The position numbers were made by a program, and so were the translations under genes. This document shows positions 7,137 to 12,978 of a DNA stretch of 15,833 nucleotides, piece after piece; within the stretch, counting starts at the first letter, position 1, and the number at the start of each line of letters is the position of its first letter. This DNA comes from Tannerella sp. (GTDB taxonomy: Bacteria > Bacteroidota > Bacteroidia > Bacteroidales > Tannerellaceae), in assembly GCA_031288935.1 (NCBI GenBank), contig JAITQL010000029.1, forward strand, positions 1 to 15,833, given 5' to 3'. The notes beneath the pieces were generated by a model. That model did not search any database. It was not told where the DNA came from and worked only from the letters and a program-made list of their open reading frames with translations.

Positions 7137-9794
7137 TTGACAGCTTTGGAGAAGTATAGATTCACAGGGGGACATGCAGCACGGCTCGTACGCAGCGCAC
7201 GGGCGGCGGCAGAGTGGATTCGTTATCCGTTATTTCTTGTATTTCTGTTGTGGCTGGCAGCCGGCGGCGTTGCCCGGGCACAGCGCGTCACGTCCGCATC
7301 GGGCACAGTGCGGGATTCGCTCACCGGCGAGCCGCTCCCGTACGCCTCCATCATCTTCAAGAACTCCACCCTCGGCGCCATGAGCGACGACGACGGACGG
7401 TTTGAACTGCATAACGACCGGGGTTGGACTGCGCTTACCTTCTACCTGCTCGGCTACGAAACAAAGGACGTGACCGTCCGCGCCGGACTGCATAACGATT
7501 CGCTCGACATTCTGCTCGCTCCTTCCTCGATCCAGCTGACGGAAGTGACCGTCAAGCCCGGACGCGAACGGTACAGCCGTCGCAACAATCCGGCGGTGGA
7601 GCTGGTGAAGAACGTCATCGAACGCAAGGACAGCAACCGGATCGTTGTGAGGGACGAATATCGGGCGGAGCGCTACCAGAAGCTGACAATGGCGCTGGAC
7701 AAGTTCGACGTGGACTTCGAGAGCAATCAGTTCCTGAAGAAGTTCAAGTTCATCAAGAGCTATATCGACAGTTCGGAGATCGACGGCAAACCCGTTCTGA
7801 CACTCTCCCTGCGGGAGGAACTGTCGGACGTGTACTACCGCAAAAGCCCGAAGTCCAAAAAGGTGATCCTCCAGGCCAGGCGCCAGAAGGGAGTGGACAA
7901 GACGCTGGACGAATACGGCACCCTCTCGGCCAATCTGGACGAGATGCTGAAGGAGATCGACGTGTTCGACAACAACATCGCCTTTCTGCTGAACAGCTTC
8001 GTCAGTCCCCTGTCGTCGACGCTGGCGGTGACCTACTATCACTACTTTATCATGGACACGGTGGAGGTGGGCGGCGAGCGGTGCGTCGACCTGGCCTTCG
8101 TGCCGGTCAACTCGCAAAGCTACAGCTTCACCGGACGGCTGTACATCACGCTGGACGGGACGTATGCCGTCAAGAAAGTGCGCCTGAACGTACCCTACCA
8201 CATCAACCTGAATTACGTCAAGAGCGTCCACATCGAACAGGAGTTTAAACGGATGCCGGACGGCCTGTGGGCGCCGGACAAGGACAATACGTCCGTCGTG
8301 TTCTACTTCGTCAAGGGCGGGCAGCAGCTGTATGCACACCAGTTGCGAAGCTATGAAAAGTACAGCTCCGGGACGGACGGCAGACAGCGCGACTCGATCT
8401 TCGGCCTGCCGGGAGAAATGCACACCGGGACAGGCGACCTGGCGCAGCCGGATACCTTCTGGACAGCCCGCCGCCACCTCCCCGTCAGGGCGAAGGAAAA
8501 TGCCATTGACAACCTGATGGCGCAACTGCGCGAGGTGCCCGTCTTCAAAGTCTTCATCAAGACGATCGAAATACTGGTTTCGGGCTTTGTGCCCGTCGAG
8601 GAGAACCACGACGAGAACAAGCTGGACTTCGGCCCGATGAACACCACCTTTAGCTCCAACGAAGTGGAAGGATTCCGCATCCGCGTCGGCGGATACACGA
8701 CCTCGCACTTCCATCCCCGCCTCTACCTGGGCGGGTTTGCGGCCTACGGAATGAACGACCGGAAATGGAAGTACCAGGGGCAGGCGACGTACAGTTTCAA
8801 CGAAAGGAAGTACCATGAAAAGGAAGCGCCGGTAAACAACCTCAGCTTCCTGCACGAATACGATCTCTATACGCCGGGGCAGGATTTCCTCTTCACCAGC
8901 AAGGACAACATGTTCGTGGCGGTGAAGGTGGGCGCCTCCATCGACAAAATGTACTACCTGCGCAAGAACAGGCTGCAATACGAGCGGGAATGGCTGAACG
9001 GCATGACCTTCAGAACGTGGATGCAGCACCAGGACAACGCCTCCGCCGGTTCGCTGCGCTACATCCTCAAGAGCGAACCCTGGCAGTATACCCGCATCCG
9101 CAGCTTCCAGACGATGGAATGGGGTACGCAGCTGCGCTTCTCGCCGGGCGAACGCGCCTACAACAGCCGGCTGGGCAAAAGCTCCATGTTCAACCTCTCG
9201 AAAGACGCGCCGATATTCATGCTCACGCACCAGCTGGGGTTTCGCTTCCTGGGCGGCGCATACGACTACCACCGTACGGAGTTCAGCGCCTCGAAGCGCC
9301 TCTGGCTCTCTTCGTTCGGCTACATCGACGCCGGCGTCAAGGCCGGGAAAGTATGGAACAAAGTACCCTTTCCGCTGCTAATCCAGCCCAATGCCAACCA
9401 GTCCGTCACGATCCAGCCGGAAGCGTTTCACATGATGAACGCCCTGGAGTTCGTGGCCGACCGCTACGTCTCGGTCGAAGCCACGTACTACCTGAAAGGA
9501 TGGATCCTCAACCGTATTCCGCTGATCAACCTCCTCCAACTGCGCGAAGTCGTCTCCTTCAGCGGCATCTGCGGCGACCTGTCCGACCGCAACAACCCGG
9601 CGCTCGGCAGCAACCTCTTCCTCCTGCCCCAGGGCACCTGGCCGCTGACGGGCGAACCGTACATGGAGTTCAGCTTCGGACTGGAAAACATCTTCCGTAT
9701 CTTGCAGGTGAACTATTACCGTCGCCTGAGCTATACCGACCATCCCGACATCCGCAAAAACGGCCTCCGCATCGCCCTGCGCTTCTCGTTCTGA
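7137..9794 (+). CDS. DUF5686 outer-membrane protein with carboxypeptidase-regulatory-like domain
   Basis: The protein has 885 residues counted from the first usable codon, a TTG at 7137. An in-frame TAA at 7128 blocks any earlier start and no ATG occurs before the signal peptide; TTG at 7146 is an alternative. The signal peptide hydrophobic core is PLFLVFLLWLAAGGVARAQ, with probable cleavage near residues 47-49. Next comes a carboxypeptidase-regulatory-like beta-sandwich (about residues 50-135: SGTVRDSLTGEPLPYASI, then DDGRFEL). The remainder matches the DUF5686 family, ending in an outer-membrane beta-barrel with the C-terminal strand GLRIALRFSF and terminal Phe. Family members are Bacteroidetes outer-membrane proteins of unknown function, distantly Omp85/surface-antigen-like. 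The gene appears monocistronic and is followed by a strong hairpin at about 9962. Function is unknown beyond outer-membrane location. Confidence 0.88.
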   Translation: MTALEKYRFTGGHAARLVRSARAAAEWIRYPLFLVFLLWLAAGGVARAQRVTSASGTVRDSLTGEPLPYASIIFKNSTLGAMSDDDGRFELHNDRGWTALTFYLLGYETKDVTVRAGLHNDSLDILLAPSSIQLTEVTVKPGRERYSRRNNPAVELVKNVIERKDSNRIVVRDEYRAERYQKLTMALDKFDVDFESNQFLKKFKFIKSYIDSSEIDGKPVLTLSLREELSDVYYRKSPKSKKVILQARRQKGVDKTLDEYGTLSANLDEMLKEIDVFDNNIAFLLNSFVSPLSSTLAVTYYHYFIMDTVEVGGERCVDLAFVPVNSQSYSFTGRLYITLDGTYAVKKVRLNVPYHINLNYVKSVHIEQEFKRMPDGLWAPDKDNTSVVFYFVKGGQQLYAHQLRSYEKYSSGTDGRQRDSIFGLPGEMHTGTGDLAQPDTFWTARRHLPVRAKENAIDNLMAQLREVPVFKVFIKTIEILVSGFVPVEENHDENKLDFGPMNTTFSSNEVEGFRIRVGGYTTSHFHPRLYLGGFAAYGMNDRKWKYQGQATYSFNERKYHEKEAPVNNLSFLHEYDLYTPGQDFLFTSKDNMFVAVKVGASIDKMYYLRKNRLQYEREWLNGMTFRTWMQHQDNASAGSLRYILKSEPWQYTRIRSFQTMEWGTQLRFSPGERAYNSRLGKSSMFNLSKDAPIFMLTHQLGFRFLGGAYDYHRTEFSASKRLWLSSFGYIDAGVKAGKVWNKVPFPLLIQPNANQSVTIQPEAFHMMNALEFVADRYVSVEATYYLKGWILNRIPLINLLQLREVVSFSGICGDLSDRNNPALGSNLFLLPQGTWPLTGEPYMEFSFGLENIFRILQVNYYRRLSYTDHPDIRKNGLRIALRFSF

Positions 9795-10080
9795 TTCGCC
9801 CGCGCCGTACCCGTTTCACGGGGAATGCCGCAGGGGAAGCATCCGGAAAAAACAGGCGGCGAACAGGCAGATTGATATGAAGTCTTCCGGAGGGAACGAT
9901 CAACATCGGGTTTGCCTCGTCCAGCGGTTGAATCGGTCAGCGAAGCAAACGGGAAGAGAGGCAAAAGGCGAAAGGGTATCCCGTGACCCTTTCGCCTTTT
10001 GTGCCTTATGCGGCACGGAGGCGTGCACGGAAGGCAGAACACGGAGTCCGAATAAACAGACGGCATTTTGCGCGGACAGA
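9795..10080. other. Gene-free spacer left of the repeat array
   Basis: This segment has coding-like GC but no convincing gene. Apart from the terminator hairpin at 9962-10001 I see no tRNA, promoter match or conserved motif. Its GC-rich character changes abruptly to AT-rich at the start of the 23-nt array near 10081. Confidence 0.5.
9962..10003. terminator. Strong bidirectional terminator hairpin
   Basis: The arms at 9962-9977 (CAAAAGGCGAAAGGGT) and 9986-10001 (ACCCTTTCGCCTTTTG) form a perfect 16-bp stem with an 8-nt loop. The A-rich outer end of the left arm and T-rich end of the right arm give each strand a T-tract, so it can stop transcription from both sides. It is 167 nt beyond the DUF5686 stop and sits between that gene and the repeat array. 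Confidence 0.75.
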
Positions 10081-10103
10081 GATGAAATTCTTTCAAGACA
10101 TCA

Positions 10104-10241
10104 TTGAAGCCTGCTTCAAGATACACTTGAAGTCTGCTTCAATATATCCTTGAAGCCGGCTTCAACATATACTTGAAGCACGCTTCAATACCTTCTTGAA
10201 TTTATTGCATGATATATATGAAGCATGCTTCATGTTATATA
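10104..10241. repeat. Palindromic units at the left end of the array
   Basis: Units 1, 3 and 4 (starting at 10104, 10150 and 10173) contain the perfect inverted repeat TTGAAGC-NN-GCTTCAA, with the central NN being CT, CG and AC. Unit 2 (10127) has one mismatch (TTGAAGT...GCTTCAA). Unit 6 (10219) has TGAAGC-AT-GCTTCA. Unit 5 (10196) is degenerate. Each would make a 7-bp hairpin in RNA or a dyad site for a dimeric DNA-binding protein, repeated about every two helical turns. Confidence 0.85.
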
Positions 10242-10264
10242 TGCAACCTGTTTCATGATATGAA

Positions 10265-10586
10265 AGAGACTGGTTTCCTTGAATCGGGAAAGCCGGTTTC
10301 CTGTTATTTATGCAGCAGATTTCACGATATTCATGCAATCTGTTTCATGATATGAATGAAAAAGATTTCCTTGAATTAGGGAAGCTGATTTCCTGTTATT
10401 TATACAGCAGATTTCATGATATTCATGCAACCTGTTTCATAATATGAATGAAAAAGATTTCCTTGAATCGGGGAAGCGGATTTCCTGTTATTTATACAGC
10501 ATATTTCATGATATTCATGCAGCTTGTTTCATAATATGAATGAAAAAGATTTCCTTGAATCGGAGACGTGAATTTCCTGTTATTCA
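10265..10586. repeat. 92-bp higher-order repeat, 3.5 copies
   Basis: Within the array four successive 23-nt units differ from each other but recur as a block: copies start at 10265, 10357 and 10449, with a half copy from 10541. The second and third copies differ at about 6 of 92 positions, while the first is more diverged, mainly in its first unit. The third copy's first unit is repeated exactly at 10541. The pattern indicates secondary amplification of a four-unit block at the right side of an older 23-nt array. Confidence 0.88.
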
Positions 10587-10596
10587 TGAAGTCTGC

Positions 10597-10865
10597 GAAT
10601 GGATATTCCGTACAGGGGGAATGAAGTGTTGTGAAACGGAGCGCGAGCCTTATATCCCGAACGTTGAACTAAGAATGCTGAAGTTTGCTTACCGGAACAC
10701 GATTCGCCCGGGCAGTCCGAATATCTCTCCCCGCGACACGTGTACGTTCATCCTGTCCTGCGACCGGTGACGAGCGTATTGACCGACAATACTTTCAGCC
10801 TTCGCAAAACAGGTGATTCAAGGTGCCCGTCATTCTGCATTCCGGCTTCTTCATTCTTTATGCTT
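10597..10865. other. Gene-free spacer between array and dnaG
   Basis: No credible gene is seen. A 76-codon open frame on the + strand (10540-10770) begins inside the last repeat copy and looks like chance. The right end (about 10827-10868) contains a TTCATTCTT-like low-complexity stretch running up to the dnaG stop codon. No promoter or terminator is clear here. Confidence 0.5.
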
Positions 10866-12938
10866 CTACATTCTCAGTATGATGCGTTCGCCCAGTTGCT
10901 TGCTCAGTTCTGCCCTGCATGCGTTCAGACGACCCAGTTCCGTCATCAGGGCGATGGCGCCGTCCATGTCACCCTCCTGTTGCAGGGTTTTGAGTTGGTT
11001 CCTTAGTCCGGCGATTTCCTGCCGGAGGTGCACTTCCTTCAATGCGAACAGATCCCTTCGGAGCGCCTGTTCAAAGGCGTCGATCAGTGTCGCGAGGCGC
11101 TGTTCCTTTTCCTTCAGCGCCCGGATGGAAGCCATTTGATTGCCCGGGACGGCGTTATTCCCTTTCGGGGGCGGATCGCCGGCATGTGCCCTTTCCGCAA
11201 AGAACTCGTCTCGCATCTTCCAGAGCGCGTCGAACCGGGCGGGATACATGTCATCCGTCAGGCGGATGGCCGTCCGGCTAACCTCCGGGTCGGGATGGGA
11301 GAGGAAGTGGCGCGATGCGTTGAATCCGGGGTCGCCGCCATGTTCGACCGCCTCGTCCAGCATACACCTGTACGCCGGTACGGAAAACATGATCCCGTCG
11401 TGCAGCAACTCCGCGCAAATATACTCCGCCACCCGGACGATCCTGTTTTCATCCCCCTCCATATAGTCGAACAGTATCTGCTCGCCGGCACGGATCACAT
11501 AGCGAAGCAGCGTCTCTTCAAAGGCCTTGTAAGGAGACGACCACCCGTCCGGTTCCGGTGGAGGCGGCGCTTCCTCCCGCTCCGGTGCGGGCGGCGGCGG
11601 CGCTTCCGGCCTGGCCTTCCACAGCTCCGGCGTCCGCTTGTTGCGTTCGCGGTTCAGCGCGTCAATCAGCACCTGCTCCCTCACATCCAGTATGCGGCTG
11701 CACTCCTTGACGTATTCGGAGCGGATGATGCCCTCCGGAATCACGGCAATGGAGCGGATGATGTCCGAAACGAGCGCCGCCCGCCGTACGGGATCGTCGC
11801 CCGCCTCCCGAAGCAGCAGGGTGGCCTTGAAGCGGATGAAATCCGTTTCATGCTGCCGGATATAGTCCGTAAACGCCGCCGCGCTGTTCTTGCGCGCGAA
11901 CGAGTCCGGGTCTTCACCGTCGGGAAGCAGTAGCACCTTGACATTCATTCCTTCCTCCAGGAAGAGGTCGATGCCTTTGATGGCCGCCCTGATACCGGCG
12001 GGGTCGCCGTCGTAGAGTACGGTGATATTGTCGGTGAGGCGGTGAATCATGCGTATCTGCCCGTGCGTGAGCGCCGTTCCGCAGGAGGCGACCACGTTCT
12101 CCAGTCCCGCCTGATGCATGGAAATGACGTCCGTGTATCCCTCCACCAGGAAGCAGCGGTCATCCTTGCGGATGGCGTTCCGTGCAAAGTAAATGCCGTA
12201 CAGCTCGTTGCTCTTGTGGTACACTTCGCTCTCGGGCGAATTGACGTACTTGGCCAACCTGTCGCTTCGCTTCAGGATCCGTCCGCCGAAGGCTACGACC
12301 TTGCCGCTCAGCGTGTGTATGGGAAAGATCACGCGCCCCCGGAACCGGTCGCGCGCCGAGCCGTCTTCATGGATGGAGACCAGGCCTGTTTTTTCGAGGT
12401 AAGCCTGCCTGTATCCGCTCCTGACGGCTGTCTGGCAGAGGTCGTCCCGCTTCTCGAGGCTGTAACCCAGTTGAAACTTGCGGACAATGTCTTCCCTGAA
12501 AGCGCGCTCGTTGAAGTAGCTCAGGCCGACGGTCTTCCCTTCCTCGTGTTCAAAGAGGCGTGAAGTGAAATACTTCTGCGCCCAGCTGTTCACGATGAGC
12601 ATGCTTTCGCGATCGCCCTGCGCACGCTTCTCTTCGTCCGTCAACTCCTTTTCCTCTATGTCGATGTGATACTTCTTCGCCAGGTAGCGGAGACCGTCCT
12701 GAAAGCTCAGCTGCTCGATCTTCATGATGAAGTGGAGCGGGTCTCCTCCCTCGCCGCAGGAGAAGCATTTGCATATGTTCCTGGCCGGAGAGACGGAGAA
12801 GGAGGGCTTGCTGTCCGAATGGAACGGACATAACCCGATCAGGTTGACGCCACGCCTGCGCAGGGTGACAAATTCAGATACGACATCGGTTATCGCAGCT
12901 GCACCCAGAATCCTGTCGACGGTCGCCCGGTCTATCAT
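10866..12938 (-). CDS. dnaG: DNA primase
   Basis: The protein has 690 residues and makes RNA primers for replication with the DnaB helicase. The ATG at 12938 gives the normal primase start (MIDRATVDRILGAA). The longer frame from 13037 would add a Cys/Ser-rich stretch and run into the preceding gene. The zinc-binding domain has C37, H40, C58 and C61. The catalytic core contains RFRGRVIFPI (198-207). The Toprim motifs are VEGYTDV (E266) and YDGDPAG (D310, D312). A proline-rich linker (about 443-464, PEAPPPP and EEAPPPPEP) joins the core to the C-terminal helicase-binding region. All catalytic residues are intact. It lies 58 nt downstream of the alcohol dehydrogenase on the same strand and may be read from that promoter. 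The usual rpsU-dnaG-rpoD neighbours of other phyla are absent. Confidence 0.97.
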   Translation of the reverse strand: MIDRATVDRILGAAAITDVVSEFVTLRRRGVNLIGLCPFHSDSKPSFSVSPARNICKCFSCGEGGDPLHFIMKIEQLSFQDGLRYLAKKYHIDIEEKELTDEEKRAQGDRESMLIVNSWAQKYFTSRLFEHEEGKTVGLSYFNERAFREDIVRKFQLGYSLEKRDDLCQTAVRSGYRQAYLEKTGLVSIHEDGSARDRFRGRVIFPIHTLSGKVVAFGGRILKRSDRLAKYVNSPESEVYHKSNELYGIYFARNAIRKDDRCFLVEGYTDVISMHQAGLENVVASCGTALTHGQIRMIHRLTDNITVLYDGDPAGIRAAIKGIDLFLEEGMNVKVLLLPDGEDPDSFARKNSAAAFTDYIRQHETDFIRFKATLLLREAGDDPVRRAALVSDIIRSIAVIPEGIIRSEYVKECSRILDVREQVLIDALNRERNKRTPELWKARPEAPPPPAPEREEAPPPPEPDGWSSPYKAFEETLLRYVIRAGEQILFDYMEGDENRIVRVAEYICAELLHDGIMFSVPAYRCMLDEAVEHGGDPGFNASRHFLSHPDPEVSRTAIRLTDDMYPARFDALWKMRDEFFAERAHAGDPPPKGNNAVPGNQMASIRALKEKEQRLATLIDAFEQALRRDLFALKEVHLRQEIAGLRNQLKTLQQEGDMDGAIALMTELGRLNACRAELSKQLGERIILRM

Positions 12939-12939
12939 G

Positions 12940-12978
12940 GCGAATGAGGAATGAAGCGTGAAGAATGAAGAATGACGG
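12940..12978. repeat. Low-complexity GAATGA-type repeat upstream of dnaG
   Basis: The + strand carries GAATGAGGAATGAAG then GAAGAATGAAGAATGACGG, tandem variants of a 6-7 nt GAATGA(A) unit. It fills most of the 58-nt gap between the alcohol dehydrogenase stop and the dnaG start. On the dnaG (minus) strand it reads as a CATTCTT-rich leader. A related stretch in the opposite orientation lies just beyond the dnaG stop at 10827-10868, ending in the same decamer CCGTCATTCT / AGAATGACGG. Confidence 0.65.

Follow-up and report, generated by a model that had tools for sequence, protein, structure and literature searches.

A largely dyad-symmetric 23-nt array beside dnaG in Tannerella belongs to a genus-dispersed family of constant unit length and variable sequence

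Results

A phased 23-nt array between a DUF5686 gene and dnaG

The stretch of DNA analysed here, referred to as the window, comprises 15,833 nt of a Tannerella sp. genome (G000) that is assembled in 264 contigs and is 56% complete. Between two convergent genes, for a DUF5686 protein and for the DNA primase DnaG (dnaG), lie about 22 tandem units with a period of 23 nt, and the features of this region are as follows.

7137..9794, + strand: left neighbour, gene for a DUF5686 / CarboxypepD_reg protein
9962..10001, + strand: perfect inverted repeat of 16 bp with TTTTG after it, on the stretch that separates the DUF5686 gene from the array; likely that gene's terminator
10092..10205, unstranded: block 1, five 23-nt units of type TTCAAGATACACTTGAAGCCTGC, with dyad arms CTTCAA/TTGAAG
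10106, 10129, 10152, 10175: exact GAAG-N4-CTTC cores of block 1
10206..10228, unstranded: degenerate unit with the single 22-nt register step
10229..10597, unstranded: block 2, sixteen units of TTTCAT.../TTTCCT... types, all steps 23 nt
10229..10584, unstranded: higher-order repeat of 92 bp (4 x 23 nt) in 3.9 copies with 88% matches, TRF score 528
10707..10808, - strand: ABC ATPase remnant, 34 aa, 50% identity, E 5e-8
10866..12935, - strand: right neighbour, DNA primase gene dnaG

Across the two blocks, 21 TTC cores keep a 23-nt register, five at 10092-10184 (10092, 10115, 10138, 10161 and 10184, i.e. 10092+23k) and 16 at 10229-10574 (10229+23k). The joint between the blocks measures 22+23 nt across one degenerate unit at ~10206 and contains the sole 22-nt step. 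The best single register holds 16 TTC, whereas 5000 mononucleotide shuffles average 2.1 and reach 5 at most. What an earlier, sequence-only reading had proposed for the number of units, the TTC register, the coordinates and the single 22-nt step is correct. That reading had also suggested a tandem-repeat finder as a check, and TRF returns periods of 23, 46 and 92 bp. The self-match of the array amounts to 0.59 at lag 23 and 0.675 at lag 92 (maximum of 500 mononucleotide shuffles, 0.358), and the 92-bp higher-order repeat is a local amplification by four units per step.

The statement that the array is not a CRISPR holds as well: the units abut with no foreign-looking spacers between them, and no cas family was found among the five window proteins scanned with Pfam. 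At gathering thresholds Rfam gives no match in the window, and a search for plasmid homology found none. The first array units are covered by a 131-aa ORF (9731-10126, - strand), which we take as spurious. TRF also reports two other repeats in the window, a GAATGAA heptamer repeat upstream of dnaG (12942-12975) and a 33-bp stretch duplicated within dnaG (11544-11607).

Most units of the window array are dyads, with CTTC-N11-GAAG inside a unit and GAAG-N4-CTTC between neighbouring units. In its typical form the 23-bp unit is an inverted repeat with half-sites of ~6 bp (nnGAAG / CTTCnn) in which 4-nt and 7-nt centres alternate. In register, the window units form on average 5.1 of 9 complementary pairs, versus 1.5-3.4 at the 22 other offsets. 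Of the four unit types in block 2, one (ctgttatttat) keeps only 2-3 of 9 pairs, and the other three keep 4-7, mostly 6. Scoring of the whole cyclic unit yields a modest symmetry, with 89, 84 and 1958 of 2000 shuffles equalling the three unit types scored.

Related arrays are dispersed through the genome and the genus

At least three such arrays are present in G000: the one in the window, a second at C56:1757-1874, ~20 bp past a gene with HU-DNA_bdg and DUF4469 domains, and a third at a contig end (C126:1-176), where it adjoins an ORF. Upstream of the C56 array, at L003 1-480 (G000:C56), an intergenic repeat that contains GCATTCC/GGAATGC palindromes is present in two long, imperfect copies.

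When the window array is used as a BLAST query against 41 genomes of the genus, only G020 is matched besides G000. A pattern of two cores spaced at 23 nt, with one mismatch tolerated, reaches nine of the 41; G002 was excluded from the carriers on account of a single, likely chance match, leaving G000, G001, G007, G020, G023, G049, G051 and G054 as carriers of GAAG-N4-CTTC at 23 nt. With G004 (a variant core at 23 nt) and G050 (the core at 21 nt), the carriers total ten. Allowing any spacing of 17-32 nt, core pairs are matched in 11 of the 41 genomes: the spacing is 23 nt in all matches listed for G001, G007, G049, G051 and G054, in G050, 11 pairs form a single run at 21 nt, and the lone pairs of G042 (18 nt) and G015 (25 nt) were not taken as marking carriers. 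For G000, G020 and G023 the spacing was judged from the two-core scan at 23 nt and from the unit collection described below. A reversed-core control (CTTC-N4-GAAG) in the same 17-32 nt scan matched four of the 41 genomes, with 28 matches in G010 and then 2, 1 and 1; the G010 matches may represent a second dyad array family. A TTC/GAA pattern matched 28 of the 41 genomes, mostly as single scattered matches that were excluded as chance.

The unit collection comprises 199 units from 35 arrays at 33 loci in eight genomes, and 161 of its 164 steps are exactly 23 nt, under an extension rule that started from exact cores and permitted only 22-24 nt. Three loci without a run of three cores (L186, L189, L209) stand outside the unit counts. 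Array loci were collected from G000 (3, at 56% completeness), G054 (12) and G001 (10), among others. Within the limits of this rule, the earlier suggestion that spacing is held while sequence drifts is supported, and the search for further loci shows a dispersed kind of array rather than one that is absent elsewhere in the genome, which had been named as the refuting case. The low GC content is a property of the window array (0.35 versus 0.56 for the window) but not of the class, the collected arrays ranging from 0.34 to 0.68.

Across the order, a three-core pattern with at most two mismatches matches 2 of 393 sampled genomes, G000 included, and the core family is thus found chiefly within the genus, apart from scattered cases such as G310. 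A further 23-nt array, at L373 1741-1936 (G054:C32), has unrelated sequence and consists of a 16-bp palindrome of type GTGCGGGACCCCGCAC plus 7 nt; it sits in the locus of a weak match to the Pfam family HTH_36.

Half-sites covary between species and loci

The GAAG-N4-CTTC core is common to the arrays, and the 11-nt spacer varies by species and, in G054, by locus. Its outermost positions, n1 and n11, form Watson-Crick pairs, of all four types, in 79 of the 95 distinct genome-spacer pairs (mean of 2000 shuffles 29.0, maximum 44). The next positions, n2 and n10, pair in 68 of 95 (mean of 2000 shuffles 31.3, maximum 47), and the inner pairs barely exceed chance. Kinship among the spacers of one genome means that these counts, although of distinct genome-spacer pairs, are not independent events. 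We regard the contrasts between species and between loci as the stronger evidence: the spacer ends are aa-tt in G000 and ca-tg in G001, G049 and G051 share ga-tc, and G054 has several types. Taken together, these patterns suggest that the thing conserved is a symmetric site rather than a sequence. Whether the dyad is centred on the spacer or on the core is not discriminated by the data (78 versus 76 of 138 pairs at 46 heterogeneous junctions).

Matched palindromes could also be produced by a neutral minisatellite, in which slippage and unequal exchange multiply whole units, the two arms of each palindrome are kept alike by template switching at the inverted repeats, and a unit length without function is simply inherited from the founder. 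We consider this main rival a possible explanation. It accounts for the dyads and the 92-bp higher-order blocks, which count in its favour, as does the mixing of spacer types inside some single arrays, but it does not explain one length in unrelated families, to which we return below.

The setting next to dnaG is not shared by close relatives

The nearest relatives of the window's dnaG are those of Tannerella MAGs, at 72-73% identity. Among the five closest relatives by dnaG, only G004 has a 23-nt array on the dnaG side, ~280 bp on and made of another unit (CTGAAGCTATGGCTTCAGGGGGT). There is no array in the first 1.3 kb past dnaG in G051, G007 and G020, nor within the 393 bp visible in G023, and the sequence past dnaG differs by eye in G004, G051, G007 and G020. 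A role linked to dnaG, whose proximity had prompted speculation in the sequence-only reading, is thus not supported, and we reject it on this absence of synteny. The patchy distribution fits the neutral minisatellite, and so does the fact that the array lies beside the remnant of an ABC gene. In G010 the gene in question, for an ABC ATPase, comes next after dnaG, and the array thus seems to sit where that gene has decayed. A different remnant of the ABC ATPase gene is found in G023 (L213 216-314).

Nor are the arrays always located between convergent genes, as had been asked: for the 35 collected arrays, convergent, tandem and divergent flanking ORFs all occur, with gene orientation and coding status taken from ORF calls. 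An ORF of at least 90 aa overlaps the array in 19 of the 35 cases, and we take these ORFs as chance frames.

Some arrays are carried by a MITE, but the window array is not

The arrays of G001 are cargo of a 0.46-0.61 kb MITE, which is composed of a leader, the array and a tail and bounded by terminal inverted repeats of 19-26 nt that are 92-100% complementary. Both ends are visible in 3 of 10 fetched loci (L198 2337-2950, L191 2289-2746 and L199 2212-2724; terminal repeats CTCATGTTACGCAATTGCC); most of the others meet contig ends, and L200 is a shorter form. G001 has at least 20 leader copies of at least 95 nt, whereas in the other genomes the best 20 candidates per genome contain leader pieces of at most 49 nt. 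An inner motif of ~30 nt of this MITE recurs in several other genomes of the genus, including G000. Copies also spread via duplication, as indicated by two G054 loci that have the array plus downstream coding-like sequence in common.

The G001 element has the architecture of BrickBuilt from Porphyromonas gingivalis, described as a 23-nt spacer-free tandem unit within an intergenic MITE, with predicted stem-loops, dispersed copies and expansion or contraction by whole units, and with a leader and tail that carry IS5-like 12-nt terminal inverted repeats (PMC4596501). The terminal repeats of the two differ in sequence (CTCATGTTACGCA... in G001, GAGACCTTTGCA in BrickBuilt). The dyad symmetry of the BrickBuilt unit is weak (18/23, equalled by 93 of 2000 shuffles).

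A BrickBuilt-type origin would make the window array the cargo of a non-autonomous transposon. This is true of the G001 arrays, and the window array resembles BrickBuilt, as set out in the passages of that account used here, in its intergenic position and its 23-nt tandem unit without spacers. The window array, however, shows no leader, no tail and no flanking terminal inverted repeats; the terminal repeat of the G001 MITE is not found near it, that of BrickBuilt has 0 matches in the window at up to 2 mismatches, and by inspection the units do not follow the BrickBuilt consensus (AGAYCATARTATCCTCTCRTRTG). In addition, the left flank (9795-10091) is single-copy in G000 (56% complete), a second match being only the self-complement of the inverted repeat. 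We consider carriage by a MITE very improbable at the window locus, where the missing ends nearly refute it.

Mobilisation of a REP/BIME element by a RAYT (Y1) transposase would likewise yield short intergenic palindromes in many copies. Y1_Tnp is found in 17 of the 41 genus genomes but in only four of the ten carriers (G020, G049, G051, G054) and not in G000 (56% complete), G001, G004, G007, G023 and G050, several of which are incomplete; strict tandem phasing at 23 nt is, to our knowledge, not a feature of REP elements. A RAYT link is disfavoured accordingly, and we give it almost no credence.

Mismatches show no clear bias towards RNA hairpins

Besides recent amplification by slippage, the sequence-only reading had offered a phased protein-binding array or a multi-hairpin RNA. 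On either strand the window array folds better than its 100 shuffles do (z -7.0 for the + strand and -4.9 for the - strand), which is compatible with a transcribed hairpin array (an sRNA, an RNA sponge or an mRNA 3' stabiliser) and is also expected of any dyad array. Selected RNA hairpins should however show more G-U than A-C mismatches on the transcribed strand. On the + strand of the window, the dyads contain 21 G-U versus 6 A-C, an excess that stems largely from copies of one 92-bp block. In ten core-family arrays between tandem ORFs the numbers are 8 G-U versus 10 A-C (two-sided binomial p 0.81), and 22 tandem-context arrays of G042, a genome of the same genus, give 21 versus 17 distinct variants (p 0.63), or 36 versus 22 when cells, which are not independent, are counted.

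A + strand RNA deduced from the G-U excess of the window alone is rejected, as the other arrays have no clear bias. Transcription of comparable repeats has been reported, for Bacillus coagulans satellites (PMC8625621) and as an RNA-seq signal of BrickBuilt elements (PMC4596501), in the parts of these accounts considered here. In the window, a perfect terminator-like hairpin separates the DUF5686 gene from the array, and an Rfam match is absent. We consider an RNA role unlikely: the multi-hairpin RNA proposed earlier finds no support in the mismatches of the arrays between tandem ORFs, where G-U and A-C occur at about equal frequency on the sense strand. The strand symmetry of the mismatches agrees with the neutral minisatellite as well.

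Length classes are held across unrelated sequence families

To place the 23-nt spacing among others, we scanned for dyad arrays, defined as three identical dyads with arms of 4 and a centre of 2-6 nt at any fixed spacing of 14-49 nt. In 800 kb of G042 (one contig) there are 92 such arrays, spaced at 40 (4), 41 (46), 42 (36), 43 (1), 21 (1), 22 (2), 36 (1) and 48 (1) nt. The other samples gave spacings of 21 (3), 23 (4) and 41 (2) in 385 kb of other genus genomes; 21 (1), 23 (3), 40 (1), 41 (3) and 42 (2) in 160 kb of G054 contigs; and 14 (2), 21, 22, 23, 41 and 42 (3) in 917 kb around dnaG of 80 Bacteroidales. None were found in 322 kb of other families or in 50 kb of E. coli.

Intergenic TRF repeats of G042 fall into 42 sequence families at 40-44 nt (49 arrays), 10 at 82-88 and 7 at 119-127 nt, with 3 at 21-23, 3 between 24 and 39, 4 between 45 and 81 and 2 above 128 nt, plus 21 families with periods of 7-20 nt. 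At the 80 dnaG loci, the periods among 87 intergenic TRF arrays include 18-20 (2), 21-23 (25), 24-40 (0) and 41-46 nt (8). It is length classes, rather than sequences, that are held. The neutral minisatellite fares poorly here: in G042, 87 of 92 dyad arrays are spaced at 40-43 nt though 14-49 nt was allowed, and 49 intergenic arrays of 40-44 nt represent 42 sequence families. Inheritance from a founder fails as an explanation when arrays of one length descend from unrelated founders.

Across L218-L237 and L277-L296, G042 contains 128 arrays with a period of 39-44 nt, which together span 36 kb (4.5%) of the 800 kb sampled; by the ORF rule 63 are intergenic and 65 overlap ORFs. These arrays comprise dozens of unrelated sequence families, many with dyads. 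In the 29 cases with a strong second dyad, its distance from the first is 19-21 nt in 18 and 8-10 nt in 8. A 41-nt family of G054 (L243 5634; L257 5234 and 5562) keeps a linker of ~30 nt while its 11-nt dyad swaps wholesale, from CCAC..GTGG to CCGG..CCGG; this is the reverse of the 23-nt family, in which the core is kept and the spacer varies.

As regards helical phasing, 23 bp correspond to 2.2 turns of B-DNA. We make no claim of strict same-face phasing, because 40-42 and 21 nt fit whole turns and 23 nt does not. A unit length like that of the 40-42-nt arrays of G042 and G054 is found in the 41-nt direct repeats of P. gingivalis PgRS/MITE464, a comparison made by description (PMC4596501).

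The same core and spacing recur in phage initiator genes

Three GAAG-N4-CTTC cores at 23 nt occur in ten contigs of a viral collection, compared with one contig at 22 nt, two at 24 nt, one at 21 nt and none for the reversed core. The preference of this core for 23 nt, in the genus as in viral contigs, is a further point against the neutral minisatellite. Six of the ten arrays lie inside ORFs with matches to phage replication-initiation or DnaD-like families (L339, L342, L343, L344, L345, L347), with L344 and L345 counting as one case rather than independent ones because of near-identical flanks. Pfam HTH_36 is above cut-off in L339, L342, L344 and L347, L343 falls just short of it, and for L345 the scan covered PHROGs only. 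Of the remaining arrays, L340 is ~220 bp before a gene for a DnaC-like helicase loader, L348 is ~70 bp beyond a primase gene, and L341 and L346 are not at replication genes. Two of the four off-spacing viral arrays are also in initiator-like ORFs (L350, L351). None of 12 chosen initiator loci of named phages has a triple dyad array, and the exact 6-bp arms of G000 and of G001 at 23 nt are found in 0 and 0 viral contigs.

The viral 23-nt arrays look like replication-origin iterons. At phage and plasmid origins, iterons of the lambda-ori or RepA_N type are tandem dyads of ~19-23 bp at fixed spacing, and the window array is alike in having tandem dyads at a fixed spacing of about two turns, with the arrays in phage initiator genes showing the same GAAG-N4-CTTC core at 23 nt. 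It is unlike them in that its neighbours are DUF5686 and dnaG rather than an initiator gene, in having 22 units versus 3-5 in phage genes, and in being one of several chromosomal copies. The iteron-like hint of the sequence-only reading gains indirect support from the arrays in phage initiator genes. Among the carriers, HTH_36 is above cut-off in G049 and G054, weak in G004, G050 and G051, and not found in G000 (56% complete), G001, G007, G020 and G023.

Discussion

The window feature is a largely dyad-symmetric minisatellite of constant unit length and variable sequence, and it belongs to a family that is dispersed through the genus. The earlier reading recognised no named repeat family. The array resembles BrickBuilt without belonging to it, and a published class does fit: Subirana and Messeguer (2021) described bacterial tandem repeats with a constant size of 20-23 or 52 nt and species-specific sequence, mostly non-coding, with several families per genome, which they called enigmatic (PMC8161180). 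They noted that 20-21 nt represent two helix turns, proposed a nucleoid protein or small RNAs, and reported for the 52-nt repeats that short sequences and their reverse often occur within one repeat (PMC8161180). The arrays described here share the constant unit length within 20-23 nt (161 of 164 steps at 23 nt), the sequence that differs by species or family at constant length, and the presence of several non-coding arrays per genome, with coding status taken from ORFs. By the passages of that study used here, the window array is a member of this constant-size, variable-sequence class. Those passages contain no dyads with covarying arms, no 40-42-nt class, no MITE carriage and no match to phage initiators. 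What is new relative to the parts of the published accounts considered here are the covarying dyads, the genus-wide core, the MITE ends in G001, the 40-42-nt class and the link to phage initiators. In the open-licence literature we found nothing on dyad covariation in such arrays or on chromosomal arrays that mimic origins.

Our preferred reading, held tentatively, is that the array is a candidate docking array, a row of symmetric sites at the DNA level for a dimeric protein. It would act as double-stranded DNA, each unit offering a docking site to a homodimeric DNA-binding protein, and binding as a homodimer would account for the joint change of both half-sites, for the constant spacing and for the lack of a strand bias. 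The copy number would shift through slippage or unequal exchange of whole units, as the 92-bp blocks suggest. The closest candidate kind of protein may be a winged-helix initiator or repressor, as in the phage genes with the same core and spacing. Overall, the feature resembles a dispersed array for protein docking more than a stutter that happened once.

A more specific version of protein docking would have the chromosomal arrays as origin mimics, i.e. iteron-like dyad arrays, some of them spread by MITEs, that serve as decoys binding the initiators of phages or plasmids. We regard it as quite unlikely, and it is weakened by the absence of a triple dyad array from all 12 named-phage loci. If it were true, the half-sites would change fast, following the initiator specificity of the invaders, and the core and the 23-bp spacing would stay as the initiator dimer needs.

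For repeats of fixed length and free sequence, covarying dyads bear on the question of what is conserved, and the comparison of G-U with A-C mismatches gives an RNA no support in this respect. The core and spacing shared with phage initiator genes would give a concrete type of binding partner for the docking array that we favour.
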